Part shown: positions 572 through 8,170 of the stretch, piece by piece | Layout: each line of letters opens with the position of its first letter | How positions within the stretch are numbered: the first letter of the stretch is position 1 | Virus record (IMG/VR): IMGVR_UViG_3300003937_000308 | Span: 1 to 43,644 of that record | From: a virus | DNA length: 43,644 nt | Reading direction: 5' to 3' (one strand) | The notes under the pieces: model-generated | Database searches by the model: none | What the model was told of the DNA's origin: nothing | Seen by the model: only the letters and a program-made list of their open reading frames with translations | Position numbers and translations under genes: made by a program

Positions 572-2170
572 ATGGCAGGATTTACCGAAAAAAGAAACGG
601 ACCGTTCAGTTCTAACTCAAGACCATTTAGCCTTTCAAACGCTTTGAAAACGCTAAGTTCTTTTGGTATGCGTTATGACGACATGGTACTTAGACAATCT
701 CAAGCAATTGGTCCAATGGAAGATCAATTTGGCTACAGAGAGATGAACCCGTTTGGCCTAGACAACGATGATATTTATGGTGCATTTGCTGCACTATCTA
801 TGGCAGATATTAATATGAAAAAGAACGTACCGTTCTTTGATATTGATTACCCTGGTAAAAGAGATGAATTGAGAAGATTCTCAATGAATGATGAAGTTGA
901 AGATGTTTTAGATATACTTTGTGATGAAGCAATTGTATATGATGAAAAGAACTTTTTTGCTCAACCTTCTATTTTAGGTCTTGACGTCTCCGATGAAGTT
1001 AATAAAGACCTTAACAAATACTTTAGACAAATTTATCACTATTTTGGTTTTAATGGTGAACAATCAGCATGGTACTTCTTTAGAAAATTCCTAGTTGATG
1101 GTTACCTATCATTTGAGATAATTTATTCCCCAGACCAAAAAGAGATTATAGGTTTTAAAGAAATTGATCCTGTAACCTTAATGCCAGGTTTTAATAAAGA
1201 CGACGGTAAGAAGGTATGGATCCAATATAAAGACGATCCGGTAAAAGAAAGAGTATTATATGATTCTCAAATTATTTATATTGCATACTCTTCACTTTCA
1301 ACTGCATCTAGAGTTAGTTACGTTGAAAGATTAGTTAGATCATTTAACTTACTTAGAATTATGGAACACACCAGAGTAATCTGGGCAGTAACAAATGCTT
1401 CATTTAGAATGAAGTTTATTATTCCTGTAGGTGGTAAATCTAAAACTAGAGCAAAACAATCGTTAGCTCAGTTAATGAATAACTATAAAGAAGTTGTTGA
1501 CTTTGATTTTGAATCAGGTTCATTGACTACAGACGGTAAGCCAATGTTACAATTTAGTAAAGAGTATTGGTTACCTTCTAAAGATGGTGAAACTCCAGAA
1601 ATTGAAACATTAGGCGGTGAAGGACCAGAATTAAATGATACAGAAGCTCTTAAGTATTTCCAAGATAAACTAAAACAAGTTTCTAAAATACCTTACAATA
1701 GATTCTTATATGAAGATGATGGTGGTGACTATGCATTAGCAGGTGACGGGATGGTAAGAGATGAAATCAAGTTCGCTAAGTTTATTAATAGATTAAGATC
1801 AGTATTCCAAGAGGTATTAGTTAAGCCATTGTATATTCAAATGTGTCTTAAATACCCAGAGTTTAGTGACGATCCACAATTTAAAACTCAAGTAGCCTTA
1901 AGATTTAATGAAGAGAATGTATTTGCTGAATTAAAGAACCAAGAAATCATGCAGCTAAGATTAGACTTTATCTCAAGTATGAGAGATAGTTTAATGACAA
2001 CTAACCAAGAGACTATGGAAGAAGAATACTATTTCGATCAAGAATACTTAGTAACAAAGTATTTAAAATTAACTGAGGATGAAATTAACGCTAATAAATC
2101 ATATAAAGCTAAAGCTGCAAAGGCTGCAGCAGATGAACCAGAGCCAGAAGATGATGGAATGGGCTTCTAA
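572..2170 (+). CDS. 20: Portal vertex protein (gp20-like)
   Basis: A 532-residue protein, close to T4 gp20 (about 524). It would form the dodecameric portal ring at one capsid vertex, through which DNA is packaged by the gp17 motor and to which the neck and tail attach. Supporting features are the length, the position immediately before the prohead core/protease/capsid genes exactly as in T4 (20-67-68-21-22-23), and the portal-like central part (around residues 195-300: FKEIDPVTLMPG, a long helical clip/stem region, then YNRFLYEDDGGDYALAG and RDEIKFAKFI near residues 375-410). The C-terminus is acidic (EPEPEDDGMGF). The start at 572 follows the late box by 20 bases in an A-rich leader without a Shine-Dalgarno sequence, as for the other genes here. 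Confidence 0.9.
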   Translation: MAGFTEKRNGPFSSNSRPFSLSNALKTLSSFGMRYDDMVLRQSQAIGPMEDQFGYREMNPFGLDNDDIYGAFAALSMADINMKKNVPFFDIDYPGKRDELRRFSMNDEVEDVLDILCDEAIVYDEKNFFAQPSILGLDVSDEVNKDLNKYFRQIYHYFGFNGEQSAWYFFRKFLVDGYLSFEIIYSPDQKEIIGFKEIDPVTLMPGFNKDDGKKVWIQYKDDPVKERVLYDSQIIYIAYSSLSTASRVSYVERLVRSFNLLRIMEHTRVIWAVTNASFRMKFIIPVGGKSKTRAKQSLAQLMNNYKEVVDFDFESGSLTTDGKPMLQFSKEYWLPSKDGETPEIETLGGEGPELNDTEALKYFQDKLKQVSKIPYNRFLYEDDGGDYALAGDGMVRDEIKFAKFINRLRSVFQEVLVKPLYIQMCLKYPEFSDDPQFKTQVALRFNEENVFAELKNQEIMQLRLDFISSMRDSLMTTNQETMEEEYYFDQEYLVTKYLKLTEDEINANKSYKAKAAKAAADEPEPEDDGMGF

Positions 2171-2204: not shown

Positions 2205-2558
2205 ATGAAAACAGATATTAATATTTTTAAAACATTCGAAGAGTTCATCACAGAAGATGCTTTAAAGGCAGGTGAAGAATCTGACGTTTACGTAGAGCCG
2301 CTTACTTTAGACTCTGGTTCTGAAATAAAATCAGCAGAAATCCTAGGAGCTATTACAGCATCTAAGACTGAAAAAGAATTTAAAGATTACTTCTTTCAAG
2401 AGTATGGACAAGATGCTTTTGCCGAAGGTGAAATGGACATTCTAGTTAAATATTATCTAGATAAAGAGACCGAAGACGCTGAGGAAGAGAAAGAAGAAGA
2501 GAAGGATGTTGAGAAAGAAGAAGAAGGTGGAGATGACGAGCTAGACCTTGACATTTAA
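2205..2558 (+). CDS. Acidic prohead core/internal protein (gp67-like by position)
   Basis: A 117-residue protein between portal and protease, the slot held in T4 by gp67/gp68 core proteins. The C-terminal 30 residues are almost entirely Glu/Asp with a few Lys, as in T4 gp67, which is acidic and is processed to internal peptides during head maturation. The N-terminus contains KTFEEFITE (residues 9-17), strikingly like the T4 capsid-targeting sequence MKTYQEFIAE, with an I-x-E that fits the gp21 protease recognition rule (L/I-x-E). The inference is a prohead core component cleaved during maturation. No sequence-level homology to gp67 can be claimed from inspection; position, composition and the targeting-like motif are the evidence. 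Confidence 0.6.
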   Translation: MKTDINIFKTFEEFITEDALKAGEESDVYVEPLTLDSGSEIKSAEILGAITASKTEKEFKDYFFQEYGQDAFAEGEMDILVKYYLDKETEDAEEEKEEEKDVEKEEEGGDDELDLDI

Positions 2559-2619: not shown

Positions 2620-4845
2620 ATGGCAAAAGTTAACGATTTACTAATCGTCGAAATGTCCTCTAGTCAACTAAGCGTAGCTTCTACAGAAGGCAAAGAGTAT
2701 GTTCTCGAAGGTATTTTTGGTGAAATTGACACTAAAAATAAAAACAACAGGATTTATACTGAAGATGAGTATGTACCTCAAATCCAACAGTTACAAGATA
2801 AAATTAAATCTTCTAAACTGTTAGGTGAGTTAGACCATCCTCAGCAATTTGATGTTTCTCTTAAAAATGTTTCACACATTATTGAGGAACTTTTCTACGA
2901 TAAAGACAATAAACATGTAAAGGGTAAAATTAGACTATTAGATACTGACGCTGGCCGTCAAGCTAAAGCATTAGTTGATGCTGGTGTACCTTTACAAATC
3001 TCTTCTAGAGCAGCCGGTGCCGTTGAATCAAACGGAAAGGTAAAAATCAAACAATTATTCACTTACGATTTAGTAGCAGATCCTGGATTTGCAAACGCTG
3101 AATTAAAAAGAGTTAACGAATCTTATGGATTCGATGATAATTCAGGTTTATGGATATATGAAATGAATGGTGAAAAAGCTGAAGAGTCTACAAAAGAAAT
3201 TACAACAAACATAAATACAGAAATAAAAGAAAAAAACATGGCAGAATTTGTAAAAGCTGAAGATTTCCATAAGTATTCTGAGTACTTAGCTAACGAAATG
3301 AAAAGCATTAAAGAGTCTATCGGTGCAAAAAACGAAGACAAGACGTTAGAAGATGTAACATCTCATAACGACCATATCGTCGAAAGCGTTAATACTCTCT
3401 CAGAATATGTTGAGTATTTAGCTGGCAAATTAGACGAGTCAATCCAGTATTCAGAACACGTTGCTGAAAAAGCAGATCAAGGTATATCTTATACTGAGAC
3501 AGTTGCTGAAAAATTAGATCAAGGTATTCAATACTCTGAGCATTTAGCAGAAGCTGTTGGTAAAGTTAAAGACTTTGCTAACTATGTTGCTGAACAAGCT
3601 AACGAAGGTAATGAAACTAATAAGAATCTATTAGGTTACGTTGAATACTTAAAAGAAAACTTACAGCAAGTATCAGAATATACTGAATATATTGCAACTC
3701 AAATCAACGAAAACTTAGTTGAAGAAGAAGTTGAAGATGAATCAGGAGAACCTGCTGAAGAGTTAGAAGATGAAACTGTAAAATCAGACGCTGAAGTTAA
3801 AGACGAAGTTGACGCTGCTGAAGTTGGTGAATTACCTGCTGAAGATGAAGGTGAAGATGGAGCTAAAGAAGTAGCTGAGACTGAAGAAGTTGAAGAAACT
3901 GAAGAAGTTGAAGAAACTGAAGAAGTTGCTGAAGAAGATGAAGCTGGTGAAGGTGCTGAAGAAGTTGCTGAAGAAGATGAAGCTGGTGAAGGTGCTGAAG
4001 AAGTAGCTGAAGAAGAAGTTACTGAAGAAGAAGACGAGGAATTTCACGCTGAAGCTGAAGAAGTAACTGAAGAAGAAGACGAAGCTGAAGCACCTGGTGC
4101 TGAAAAAGAAGAGGCTGATGTTGAAGAAATTGGCGATAATTCAGAAGAAGGTGATGTAGATCCTGCTGCTGAAGATGGAGCTGGTCAACCTGCTGAAGAA
4201 TTGGAAGATGAAACTGAAGATGTATCTGAAGTTGAGCCAGAAGGTGAAACTGAAGAAGCTGAAGCTGGAGAATCTGATGAAGAAACTGAGGGCGAAGATG
4301 GAGCACACGATCCATTAGAGTCTTACAAAAAAGAAATTTCATCTAAATTAGATGCATTAGTAGAAGCTGCTCAAGTAAAAGAAAATGAAAATCCTGCATT
4401 CTTAAATGTAGTTTCAGGTTCTGTACAAGAAGCTTACAATACACTAAACGAAGATGCAAAAACTGAAGTTAGAAGTAGAGTTACAAAAAGAGCATTTATG
4501 AATGAGTCACAAATTAGTGCAATCATTGAAAACGCAAATGCTGTTGTTGAAGCTAAAAATAACGAACCATTCTTTATCACTGCAATACCTGCAGAATATA
4601 AAGAGAAGTTTGAATCTTTAACTGAAGGAAAACAAGCACAAATTAAAGCACAAGCAAACTATCATACTCTAAAGACTGAGTATCAAGTTAGAAACTTCTG
4701 GGAAACTAGAGATCTAAGAGAGGTTAAAGTTGACTTAGAAAAGTTAGCTGCAGTTAATGAATCAGCTAAGACTGAGGAAATTAATAAGCCACTATATGAT
4801 GTTTCCGATATGGCTGATGCTTTTAAGAAAAGATTTAAAAAGTAA
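2620..4845 (+). CDS. 21: Prohead protease fused to scaffold (gp21-gp22-like)
   Basis: A 741-residue protein, far longer than T4 gp21 (about 212). Residues 1-170 match the T4-type prohead serine protease: GELDHP with candidate catalytic His73, then LQISSRAAG with candidate Ser128/129 and YDLVADPGF as the third conserved block. This enzyme cleaves core and shell proteins after L/I-x-E. Residues 207-365 are helical with repeated Y-x-E-x-[LIV]-A units (for example YSEYLANE, YVEYLAGK, YSEHVAEK). Residues about 368-565 are a long Glu-rich tract, and the last 170 residues form a mixed charged helical domain. The second half behaves like a scaffold (gp22 role), and no separate gp22 gene lies between this gene and the capsid gene. 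A methionine at residue 207 has a start-like context (see separate entry). Confidence 0.82.
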   Translation: MAKVNDLLIVEMSSSQLSVASTEGKEYVLEGIFGEIDTKNKNNRIYTEDEYVPQIQQLQDKIKSSKLLGELDHPQQFDVSLKNVSHIIEELFYDKDNKHVKGKIRLLDTDAGRQAKALVDAGVPLQISSRAAGAVESNGKVKIKQLFTYDLVADPGFANAELKRVNESYGFDDNSGLWIYEMNGEKAEESTKEITTNINTEIKEKNMAEFVKAEDFHKYSEYLANEMKSIKESIGAKNEDKTLEDVTSHNDHIVESVNTLSEYVEYLAGKLDESIQYSEHVAEKADQGISYTETVAEKLDQGIQYSEHLAEAVGKVKDFANYVAEQANEGNETNKNLLGYVEYLKENLQQVSEYTEYIATQINENLVEEEVEDESGEPAEELEDETVKSDAEVKDEVDAAEVGELPAEDEGEDGAKEVAETEEVEETEEVEETEEVAEEDEAGEGAEEVAEEDEAGEGAEEVAEEEVTEEEDEEFHAEAEEVTEEEDEAEAPGAEKEEADVEEIGDNSEEGDVDPAAEDGAGQPAEELEDETEDVSEVEPEGETEEAEAGESDEETEGEDGAHDPLESYKKEISSKLDALVEAAQVKENENPAFLNVVSGSVQEAYNTLNEDAKTEVRSRVTKRAFMNESQISAIIENANAVVEAKNNEPFFITAIPAEYKEKFESLTEGKQAQIKAQANYHTLKTEYQVRNFWETRDLREVKVDLEKLAAVNESAKTEEINKPLYDVSDMADAFKKRFKK
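3238..4845 (+). CDS. 22: Possible internally initiated scaffold protein (gp22-like), in frame
   Basis: The ATG at 3238 is in frame with the protease gene (codon 207) and follows GAAATAAAAGAAAAAAAC, an A-rich stretch like the leaders of the annotated late genes. The product starts MAEFVKAEDF, of the same MA-x-F style as other structural proteins here, and would be a 535-residue scaffold comprising the Y-x-E-x-[LIV]-A repeats, the acidic tract and the C-terminal domain. The arrangement parallels lambda C/Nu3, where scaffold is translated from an in-frame internal start of the protease gene. Alternatively the protein is made only as a fusion and cut by its own protease. Supported by context and sequence look only. 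Confidence 0.4.
   Translation: MAEFVKAEDFHKYSEYLANEMKSIKESIGAKNEDKTLEDVTSHNDHIVESVNTLSEYVEYLAGKLDESIQYSEHVAEKADQGISYTETVAEKLDQGIQYSEHLAEAVGKVKDFANYVAEQANEGNETNKNLLGYVEYLKENLQQVSEYTEYIATQINENLVEEEVEDESGEPAEELEDETVKSDAEVKDEVDAAEVGELPAEDEGEDGAKEVAETEEVEETEEVEETEEVAEEDEAGEGAEEVAEEDEAGEGAEEVAEEEVTEEEDEEFHAEAEEVTEEEDEAEAPGAEKEEADVEEIGDNSEEGDVDPAAEDGAGQPAEELEDETEDVSEVEPEGETEEAEAGESDEETEGEDGAHDPLESYKKEISSKLDALVEAAQVKENENPAFLNVVSGSVQEAYNTLNEDAKTEVRSRVTKRAFMNESQISAIIENANAVVEAKNNEPFFITAIPAEYKEKFESLTEGKQAQIKAQANYHTLKTEYQVRNFWETRDLREVKVDLEKLAAVNESAKTEEINKPLYDVSDMADAFKKRFKK
3880..3999 (+). repeat. Tandem coding repeats in the scaffold acidic tract
   Basis: Two tandem arrays abut. An 18-bp unit encoding TEEVEE runs about 2.7 times from 3880. 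A perfect 39-bp unit encoding EVAEEDEAGEGAE occurs twice at 3922-3960 and 3961-3999 and then degenerates. Both keep the reading frame, so length could vary by slippage without breaking the gene. Confidence 0.9.
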
Positions 4846-4952: not shown

Positions 4953-6320
4953 ATGGCAAATTTAATTAACGAAGCTGAAGTTAGAAACACGTGGTCACCG
5001 ATTATTTCGGAAGCTACTGGTATTAACGAAAGCTCAAAACTAGCTTGGATGTCAGAATACTGTCACAATCACAAGCTTTATGAAGATGCAAACATCATGT
5101 CTTTAGGGACTGCTGGTAACATCTTTGGTATGGGAGCAACAAGCTTTCCAGATAACCCAAACTCAGGTGATTTAGGTTCAGGAGATAAAGCTCCAACTTT
5201 ATTACCTTTAGCAATGCAAGTTGCTGCACAAACAATCGGTTTAGACCTAGTACCTGTTGTACCAATGGCTGGACCAATGGGATTATTATCTTACCTAGAC
5301 TTCGTATACGAAGGTGGTAAAGTAATTGGTTCTGAAACTCCAACTTACATCAAAGCTAACATCGGCGTTGCCGCTGCTGGTAATGATACTGCTGCTGGTA
5401 CTTCAAGAATCGATGGTAAACCAATTATCAGAGTTATTGATGCATTAGCCGGTGGTGAAGCTTCTATCGCTGATAGATATGCTGGTGCTGAATTAGTAAA
5501 AGCTCTAGAAGATCATATTCCTGCATTTTCAGGTGCTGATGCTAACGGTAACCCAATGTCAAGAGGCGTAGGGGAACAAACTCCAGACAAAGTAATGGGC
5601 TTAAGCTTATTCTCTAAATCAGTTGCTGCTGAAACTTTCCAAGTTGCTGCTGCAGTTACTAGAGAGCAAGTACAAGACCTTAAACAATTCGGTGTTGACG
5701 CTGTTGCTCAAGTAGAAGCAGTTTTAACTAACGAATTAACTCAGTCTATTAACAACCACATCTTAACTTCAATGAGAGGTTTAGCTGGTCAAGGTTTAGG
5801 AGTTGATAACGCAGGCGTAAACGAAGTAAGTATAGCTGTAGCTGCTAACTCTGGTGAAACTAGAGCAGATTCTTACAGAGCAATCTTAACTAATATCTTA
5901 GCTGCTGCGAACTTAATCGCACAACAAGGTAGAAGAGGTGCTGGTAACTTCGCAGTTGTAGGTGGTGCTGTTGCATCCGCTTTACAATCTGTTGCTGGTT
6001 TCGTTGCTTACCCAATGGCTAACACTGTTAACCAAGTTGCAGGTTCAATCTATCCTTTAGGTTCTGTTGCTGGTATCAATGTTTACACTGACCCATCAAT
6101 CGCATTCGGTTCTGCTGAAGTATTAATCGGTAGAAAAGGTGACGGTAATGGTCCTGGATTAGTATTCATGCCTTACTTAATGGCTGAATCAGTACAAGCA
6201 ATCGTTGAAGGAACTATGGCTCCGAAAGTAGCTGTAAAATCTAGATACGCATTGGTTGAAGCTGGATTCCACCCAGGAACTCAATACGAGAAGTTCACAC
6301 TTACAGGTTTCTCACTATAA
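4953..6320 (+). CDS. 23: Major capsid protein (gp23-like)
   Basis: A 455-residue protein (T4 gp23 is 521) directly after the protease/scaffold gene, as in T4. The segment beginning LLPLAMQVAAQTIGLDLV and continuing with VVPMAGPMG and LSYLDFVYEGG corresponds to the gp23 region following the maturation cleavage point, where T4 has its conserved QPMxxPTGQ motif. The C-terminal half is Ala/Gly-rich with the HK97-fold look (FAVVGGAVASALQSV, VNQVAGSIYPLG, YALVEAGFHPGTQYEK). Candidate gp21-type cleavage sites (L/I-x-E) in the N-terminal region are ISE (18-20), INE (24-26) and LYE (42-44). It sits behind the structured leader and is followed by a strong terminator, so it probably forms an abundant separate transcript. 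Codons look more uniform than in neighbours, fitting high expression. Confidence 0.93.
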   Translation: MANLINEAEVRNTWSPIISEATGINESSKLAWMSEYCHNHKLYEDANIMSLGTAGNIFGMGATSFPDNPNSGDLGSGDKAPTLLPLAMQVAAQTIGLDLVPVVPMAGPMGLLSYLDFVYEGGKVIGSETPTYIKANIGVAAAGNDTAAGTSRIDGKPIIRVIDALAGGEASIADRYAGAELVKALEDHIPAFSGADANGNPMSRGVGEQTPDKVMGLSLFSKSVAAETFQVAAAVTREQVQDLKQFGVDAVAQVEAVLTNELTQSINNHILTSMRGLAGQGLGVDNAGVNEVSIAVAANSGETRADSYRAILTNILAAANLIAQQGRRGAGNFAVVGGAVASALQSVAGFVAYPMANTVNQVAGSIYPLGSVAGINVYTDPSIAFGSAEVLIGRKGDGNGPGLVFMPYLMAESVQAIVEGTMAPKVAVKSRYALVEAGFHPGTQYEKFTLTGFSL

Positions 6321-6442: not shown

Positions 6443-8170
6443 ATGGCTAAATTTAAAAAACCAATTCTACTACAAGAAGAGTTTGCTGCTGGTGAAGTTT
6501 CAAGTAATCCAACTACACCTGCTGTTAAAACAACTGTAGACACAGTAGGGACTGAACAAGTTGCTGCTAATAAATCAGGAGAACAAGTAAGAGCAGAAAT
6601 CGTACAAGATGTCGATACTATCTTAACTAACCTAGAACAACTTTCAAAGCAAATCACAGAAAGCATTGACGCAATTATAGAAGAAGTCTTTACTGAAGAT
6701 ATTGATTTAGAATTAAACGAAAACGCAGGTGCTACTTTAATGGCGATGTTTAAAGCATCCGCAGCTGCAGGCAAACTTAATGCTAAATACCCTAAATTAT
6801 TAAAGAAGAAAAAGAAGGCTGAATTAGATAAAAAAATAGCCGGCTTTAAATTTGATGAAGAGAAGCAGAATAAGTTAGATCAAGCTGAAGGTAAATTAAA
6901 AGATGCTATCAATAAGAAAATTGATGCACTTGACGATCCTGCTAAAAAGAAGGCAATGAGAGTTGCTAGAGATGAAAAAGTTAAATCTCAGTTGGCTCAG
7001 GCTACCAAAGAACTAGATAGAACAAAAGAAGATTACGCTAAAAAAATGGACAGGCAAGTAGAAGATGTCCAAGCCAAAATCACTAAATTACTTGCTGATA
7101 ACAAAGTGGGCGATGCTCCTTTAATTAGTGCTCAATGGGATAAGACTAAGATTAAGATTGAAAGAGACGCTGATGATGCATTCTTAAAGAAGGAAAGAAA
7201 GGTAATGGACGAGTTCGTCAAGGATGAAGACAGAATTAAAAGATGGGAAAAAGCAGCCGCGGATAGAGTTAATAAAGAAATGAAAGAGGATGCTGAAGCT
7301 GCTAAGAAAGCAGCAGAAAGAGCTAAAGCTGCCCAAACTAAATTAGATGGTGAAATTGCAAATGCTACTGGCGCTGAACTAGAAGCACTTGAAAAAGTGA
7401 AAACTTATATGGGTGCTATTTCAGCATTTTCAGGAGCCACTACCGCTGCAGCTGGAGATCCAGAAAACAAAGAATTATATAAAGAGGCAAAAGCAAAACT
7501 TAAAGAGTTAAAAGATGCCTATGAAGCAATCGGTAAAAAAGATTATGCTCTAGCATTTGGATACGAGGGTGATTCTAAGGAAACTGATATTGAAGCTGCT
7601 AAGCTTGAATTTAAAGAAAGAATAGCTTTAATGGAAGAGCCTTTCGATGATATAGACGGACCGGAAGATGATGAAGAAACGGAAACTGCAAAAACATCAC
7701 AACAATTAGCTGATGAATATATCGCAGGTAATGAAGGATTTGAAGTTGTTCAAAATAAAGACGAACAAGTTGGAGTTACTAATCCAGAAACTGGAGAAGA
7801 AGAACAAAAACCTAAATATGAAGGCGCAAAAGAGTTCAAAGGTAAGAAAGAAGATGGTTCTGATGACGACTCAGTTTGGGTAGCTAAACCAATTAATTAC
7901 GCTGAGACGGCATCTGCTAATACCGGAGGCGGTAAAGCTCTTAACGAACTTGAAGAAGGAAATGAATTCGGTGCTGCAAGAGCAGAAGCAATTGCAAAAG
8001 GCGAAAAGACTTTTAAAGTTGGCGACGAAGAATATCCAGTAGAAGATGTTTCTAAGGATGATAAAGAAAATGCTAAAGAATTTGTTGAAGAAGCAAAAGA
8101 AAAATTACCTAAGAAGATTAAACTCTATGAAGGTATGTCTGTTGCTGATAGATTTAAAGCGTTAATGTAA
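6443..8170 (+). CDS. Lys/Glu-rich coiled-coil protein, candidate internal head protein
   Basis: A 575-residue protein with no recognised enzyme domain. Most of residues 60-420 is charged helix with Ala/Lys/Glu heptad-like stretches (for example long K/E/A runs around residues 110-330); the last third is acidic and Gly-rich, ending MSVADRFKALM. The N-terminus MAKFKKPILLQEEF contains LQE (residues 10-12), a prohead-protease-type L-x-E in the position where T4 internal proteins carry their short capsid-targeting peptide, and a second LYE occurs about 13 residues before the C-terminus. Located directly after the capsid gene with its own late box and terminator, it is inferred to be an abundant virion protein packaged inside the head. 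T4 has the vertex gene 24 at this place, but no similarity to gp24 is evident. Confidence 0.6.
   Translation: MAKFKKPILLQEEFAAGEVSSNPTTPAVKTTVDTVGTEQVAANKSGEQVRAEIVQDVDTILTNLEQLSKQITESIDAIIEEVFTEDIDLELNENAGATLMAMFKASAAAGKLNAKYPKLLKKKKKAELDKKIAGFKFDEEKQNKLDQAEGKLKDAINKKIDALDDPAKKKAMRVARDEKVKSQLAQATKELDRTKEDYAKKMDRQVEDVQAKITKLLADNKVGDAPLISAQWDKTKIKIERDADDAFLKKERKVMDEFVKDEDRIKRWEKAAADRVNKEMKEDAEAAKKAAERAKAAQTKLDGEIANATGAELEALEKVKTYMGAISAFSGATTAAAGDPENKELYKEAKAKLKELKDAYEAIGKKDYALAFGYEGDSKETDIEAAKLEFKERIALMEEPFDDIDGPEDDEETETAKTSQQLADEYIAGNEGFEVVQNKDEQVGVTNPETGEEEQKPKYEGAKEFKGKKEDGSDDDSVWVAKPINYAETASANTGGGKALNELEEGNEFGAARAEAIAKGEKTFKVGDEEYPVEDVSKDDKENAKEFVEEAKEKLPKKIKLYEGMSVADRFKALM

Follow-up and report, generated by a model that had tools for sequence, protein, structure and literature searches.

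One gene for a T4-type prohead protease and a predicted scaffold, with a conserved candidate internal start, in a lineage of T4-related phages

INTRODUCTION

Proheads of T4 contain 72–100 copies of the protease gp21 per 576 copies of the scaffold protein gp22 (PMC9026906, PMC5694885), and the two proteins are encoded by two genes which are 30 bases apart. In the IMG/VR virus record IMGVR_UViG_3300003937_000308 (positions 1–43 644; this whole stretch of 43 644 nt is referred to as the window) a T4-type protease domain and a long scaffold-like region are found in one open reading frame. A fused gene with one product would deliver protease and scaffold one to one, so that, given the ratio in T4, it needs a way to make extra scaffold. 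How, then, could such a gene supply the core of a prohead?

Several viruses outside the T4 type offer points of comparison. In lambda C/Nu3, where the protease belongs to the S49 family, protease and scaffold share one frame and an internal start gives a scaffold-only product; internal initiation is understood to provide scaffold in excess, while a minority of fusion protein brings in the protease. Herpes simplex UL26/UL26.5 is likewise a nested protease–scaffold gene with a scaffold-only product, although UL26.5 comes from a separate transcript and the virus is a eukaryotic one. For P2 gpO, whose protease is of a different family from the one described here, no internal start is known. P2, like lambda, has protease and scaffold in a single gene (PMC8508860, for lambda with reference to Shaw and Murialdo 1980), and in this respect gpO resembles the gene in the window. 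The original prediction for this locus proposed an arrangement of the lambda kind in a T4-like phage, with the in-frame ATG at position 3238 as a second start of translation.

RESULTS

Protease and scaffold-like region in a single frame

The frame at 2620–4845 (plus strand) starts with ATG and runs through 741 codons with no internal stop, which confirms that the two parts form one gene. It is preceded by a T4-type portal gene (gp20; 572–2170, plus strand; PF07230, 3e-72) and by an ORF for a 117-aa protein with an acidic tail (2205–2558, plus strand), which lies between portal and protease in the place of T4 gp67/gp68, and it is followed by the T4-type major capsid gene (gp23; 4953–6320, plus strand; PF07068, 1.7e-45). 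The order portal, small core protein, protease, scaffold and capsid is that of T4. No gene lies in the 107 bases between 4845 and 4953, and a separate gp22 gene is therefore absent from the locus, as had been claimed. Two further ORFs lie nearby. A 103-aa ORF before the portal gene (231–542) has a weak match to phrog_429 (DNA end protector; E 0.0012) and is perhaps a relative of T4 gp2. The ORF at 6443–8170 after the capsid gene encodes 575 aa with charged character, is present in about half of the loci of close relatives, has no family match in Pfam or PHROG profiles and possibly specifies another head or core protein.

By sequence and predicted fold, the N-terminal part of the fused gene (residues 1–182; 2620–3165, plus strand) is a T4-type (S77) prohead protease, of the same family and fold as the product of T4 gene 21. 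PF03420 (Peptidase_S77) matches residues 27–138 (E 2e-12; 47.5 bits with a cutoff of 27) and phrog_207 (head maturation protease) matches residues 8–301 (1.3e-43). The AF2 model of the domain was found to match T4 gp21 (5jbl) in Foldseek with E 2.5e-7 and a TM score of 0.61 by target length. The protease had been assigned to residues 1–170; the assignment holds, with the domain limit taken from the model at residue 182. H73, S128, S129, D150 and D154 are invariant in 11 divergent members and are candidates for the catalytic His, Ser and Asp.

The fusion is conserved among relatives

Three IMG/VR scans, with some overlap between them, yielded 240 loci, and the approximately 240 related loci belong to marine phages, megaphages and Lak phages. 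Together with the huge phages LR756500, LR756501, LR756502 and LR756504 and the Lak phages, these loci were searched for relatives with a stop between the protease and scaffold parts. We observed no such split: in all 206 complete ORFs the protease continues into the C-terminal part, and none of them ends within 150 codons past the protease end, although one Lak locus is fused only if TAG is read as Q. The huge phages LR756500–LR756504 and LR745206 and the Prevotella Lak phages show the same fusion of the protease to a long C-terminal part, in records where it is unannotated. The huge phages (four records read) share the internal Met and a related coil with the window, and in the Lak phages (L086 and L087; TAG read as Q) the extension fused to the protease is acidic. 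That T4-like phages normally use two genes proved correct in the cultivated T4-type phages that were examined: a separate gp22, or another gene at that position, was seen in T4, RB43, cyanophages, Vibrio D490, Serratia IME250, Acinetobacter MD-2021a, Campylobacter CP8, Rhizobium RHph_I46 and PA5oct.

In the protease tree the fused forms (clades A, B, C and Lak) fall on one side with 96/93 support. The separate protease of Sphingomonas phage PAU, a very long branch, stands beside or among the fused forms, and the root of the tree is not securely placed; for these reasons the sequences make a single origin of the fusion likely rather than certain. The PAU neighbour gp152 shows, by eye, no likeness to the scaffold part; given this, the long branch and the separate protease, PAU was not used for dating the fusion. 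A GTDB scan for a host gave a single match, on a contig of a SAR324 bin (FRAM18_bin343) which looks chimaeric. This contig of 606 700 bases has the portal gene and the 117-aa ORF, followed by the fused gene, which reaches only to the acidic stretch; there it gives way to sequence resembling a bacterial PEP carboxykinase, and the contig has no capsid gene.

Character of the C-terminal part

The AF2 model of the whole protein has a mean pLDDT of 54 and a pTM of 0.27, and due to this low confidence only domain limits and well-scored domains were used. A disordered linker (3166–3237, plus strand; pLDDT below 50 over residues 182–212) leads into a coiled region with 14-residue repeats (residues 213–367; 3256–3720, plus strand), for which the model shows long helices and which is related to the coils of megaphages. 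Over residues 207–367 a heptad period of 3.5 reaches a power of 164, compared to less than 63 in 95% of shuffles. The coil is followed by an acidic disordered stretch (residues 368–563; 3721–4308, plus strand), in which D and E make up 52% and the net charge is −99 (counted over about residues 368–565); its pLDDT is about 30 and its length differs between relatives through indels. A helical C-terminal domain completes the protein (residues 565–741; 4312–4842, plus strand), with a pLDDT of 78–87 over most of residues 570–700. Coil and C-terminal domain are common to clades A, B and C. These features agree with the earlier description of residues 207–741 as coiled, acidic and scaffold-like.

Homology of this part to gp22 was not detectable (hhalign probability 0.2%), and it gave no match to phrog_237 in a profile search in which gp22 of T4 and of cyanophages match at 1.6e-92 and 1.2e-129; we also found no solved structure that resembles it. 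Judged by its sequence, the part is not filed under the gp22 family, and because gp22 homology is undetectable the label scaffold comes from position and physical character. From the position before the capsid gene, the heptad coil, the acidity and charge, and the length we infer that it is a scaffold. Alternatively, it might be a targeting tail or an internal head protein, with the scaffold encoded elsewhere, for example at 2205–2558 or 6443–8170. The undetected gp22 homology would agree with this, as would the charged character of ORF 6443–8170 and its lack of a family match; however, that ORF was found in no more than 37 loci of clade A and a single locus of clade B. The ORF at 2205–2558, which has no family match in Pfam or PHROG profiles, is conserved in clades A and B only, whereas coil and C-terminal domain occur in all three clades. 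Since the other candidates are not common to the three clades, and with position, heptad coil and charge of the C-terminal part fitting a scaffold, we regard a different scaffold gene as unlikely.

The leader of the candidate internal start

The ATG at 3238–3240 (plus strand) is codon 207 of the gene, in frame, and lies within the disordered linker, six residues ahead of the first scaffold helix in the AF2 model. Directly upstream is gaaataaaagaaaaaaac, the A-rich leader-like stretch that had been pointed out. In the clade A alignment the linker varies in protein sequence and length, while its A-rich end, which would double as the leader of the internal start, is constant. Among the 321 in-frame internal ATGs in the larger ORFs of the window, ATG 3238 has the most A upstream, and no other has 15 A among the 20 bases before it. 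When scored with a matrix derived from the gene starts of the window itself its leader ranks 4th of 321, with three other internal ATGs slightly above it. By calculation, the RNA around ATG 3238 is close to unstructured (−1.2 kcal/mol for 60 bases, compared to a mean of −8.2 for the gene).

A is found at −3, −6, −12 and −13 before ATG 3238, and A at these positions raises initiation in Flavobacterium johnsoniae (PMC6847099). The leader therefore matches the pattern of this SD-less member of the Bacteroidota, and clear SD sites were not seen by eye at the gene starts of the window, as in Bacteroidota. The full-length start has G at −3, and the leader of ATG 3238 is closer to that of the capsid gene than to that of the full-length start.

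Selection on the candidate internal start and its flanks

We analyzed synonymous variation in 42 dereplicated close relatives (clade A), using 276 windows in the first 330 codons. Met207 is invariant in all 42 sequences, and none of the six informative codons around it (203–206, 208 and 209) shows any synonymous variation, whereas codons 172–183 show above-average synonymous variation. The flank of Met207 is the lowest of the 276 windows (permutation p < 5e-5); this minimum was reached by 0 of 20 000 shuffles and, with shuffling within amino acids, by 0 of 5000. As the sequences are related and hence not independent of one another, the p-value serves as a guide, and the contrast with neighbouring codons in the same sequences is the stronger point. 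In clade B, Met is present in 45 of 45 sequences and the synonymous minimum coincides with that of clade A (p 0.024). All 51 sequences of clade C, to which the 735-kb phages belong, have the Met as well, with a minimum just upstream (p 0.05); here the strongest constraint is found ∼18–27 bases upstream of the ATG and the bases before it fit the Kozak-like pattern less well.

Wherever the first coil motif is recognisable, Met occupies the slot before it (238 of 238 loci); in 197 of these A stands at −3. Position 182 has Met in about half of 118 sequences and I, L or V in the rest, from which it follows that conservation of Met is not general in this region; Met182 was rejected as an internal start for the same replacements. 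The comparison of sequences thus indicates that ATG 3238 and its flanks are under selection, and the proposal of a candidate internal start is borne out by the invariant Met and the loss of synonymous change around it, a pattern partly repeated in two distant clades. Constraint by itself names no cause, and it could belong to another DNA or RNA signal with the ATG incidental; since it centres on an in-frame ATG that is invariant, sits at a domain border and follows a start-like leader, we consider this extremely improbable.

In clade C (loci L171–L250) we also noticed TCCGAtGAGTCAAAAATAAA, which is nearly fixed ∼18–33 bases upstream of the internal ATG, several synonymous sites included. Its core, GAGTCAAA, was present in a single copy in each of the 20 loci checked. 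A promoter, a ribosome site or a protein constraint are candidate roles.

Other possible routes to a separate scaffold

T4 has many late promoters, and a scaffold-only product starting at ATG 3238 could come from a transcript of its own, with a promoter inside the protease part as for herpes simplex UL26.5. Both CATAAATA at 3210, which is one base off the T4 late motif, and the conserved stretch ∼18–33 bases before the ATG in clade C would be in line with this. However, the T4 late motif occurs in the window no more often than expected (148 sites compared to 155) and CATAAATA is not kept in relatives; a T4 late promoter inside the gene was rejected, being neither enriched nor conserved. The clade A constraint, moreover, covers ∼12 bases before and ∼6 bases after the ATG. 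It thus takes in codons 208 and 209, in keeping with a site of initiation. We judge an internal promoter to be a very unlikely explanation, which could still be another route to the same product, most of all in clade C.

It is also conceivable that only the full-length protein is made and that the protease cuts itself to release the scaffold, as P2 gpO does, perhaps after I-Y-E (residues 179–181) or another L/I-x-E, with Met207 as plain linker. T4 gp21 cleaves after L/I-x-E, and its autocleavage is described as a major gap (PMC9026906). C-terminal processing is known for proteases of the S77/gp21 family, and [IV][YF][ED] directly follows the protease in 245 of the 246 loci that were scanned. 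In the AF2 model, however, I-Y-E lies within the last strand of the protease domain, and about half of the clade C sequences have I-Y-D or a similar sequence instead; in spite of its conservation I-Y-E was rejected as the cut site. The scaffold part contains further L/I-x-E sites but shows no enrichment of them. Self-cutting as the only source of scaffold would leave the invariant Met207 and the synonymous loss around it unexplained and appears quite unlikely to us, although it may occur in addition to the internal start.

DISCUSSION

We consider it probable that the gene gives rise to two prohead-core proteins, a protease–scaffold fusion and a scaffold-only protein made by internal initiation. 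Translation from 2620 would yield the fusion, and translation of the same mRNA from ATG 3238 would yield the scaffold alone (predicted product of 535 aa; 3238–4845, plus strand) in larger amount. We propose that the scaffold-only protein would be in excess because its SD-less A-rich leader suits initiation of the Bacteroidota type better than does that of the start at 2620. The scaffold part of the fusion could then co-assemble with free scaffold and bring the protease into the core, where a fixed dose of protease would later digest scaffold and capsid propeptide. Internal initiation would in this way combine excess scaffold with a minority of fusion protein that carries the protease. This interpretation is supported by comparative evidence, with the scaffold-only protein as its predicted product.

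As originally suggested, the arrangement resembles lambda C/Nu3 in its one open frame and its conserved in-frame candidate internal start with an initiation signal, with a scaffold-only product as the prediction. It differs from lambda, with its S49 protease, in having T4-type capsid, portal and protease and an A-rich leader without SD. The difference from T4 lies in the fusion and in a scaffold part with no detectable relation to gp22; gene 21 of T4 has an internal start of its own, which however produces a shorter protease and not a scaffold. With somewhat better than even confidence we take the nested gene with its internal start to be an inherited way of building heads in a large T4-related lineage, including the 735-kb and probably the Lak phages, which arose independently of lambda and the herpesviruses, in which an SD-less Kozak-like leader sets the ratio of scaffold to protease and the scaffold is unrelated or unrecognisably related to gp22.

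While the arrangement is known in other viruses, its occurrence with a selected internal start in a T4-type lineage and in the largest phages appears to be undescribed in the literature searched. Our search found no paper naming a nested protease–scaffold arrangement in T4-like or huge phages, and no study of head assembly in the largest known phages; no counterpart of gp22 has been confirmed in giant phages (PMC5694885). If our reading is true, a protease tethered to scaffold together with free scaffold from an inner start would be the same solution in another virus lineage and in the largest phages. The locus would also be a natural example of an initiation site buried in coding sequence where SD signals are absent, and it makes a clear prediction for the protein ratio. 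As a further observation, tandem 14-residue units of the type YSEYIAENLDKNIA are numerous in the coil of the megaphages (L083–L085) and outnumber those in the window, and the number of these repeats might track capsid size.
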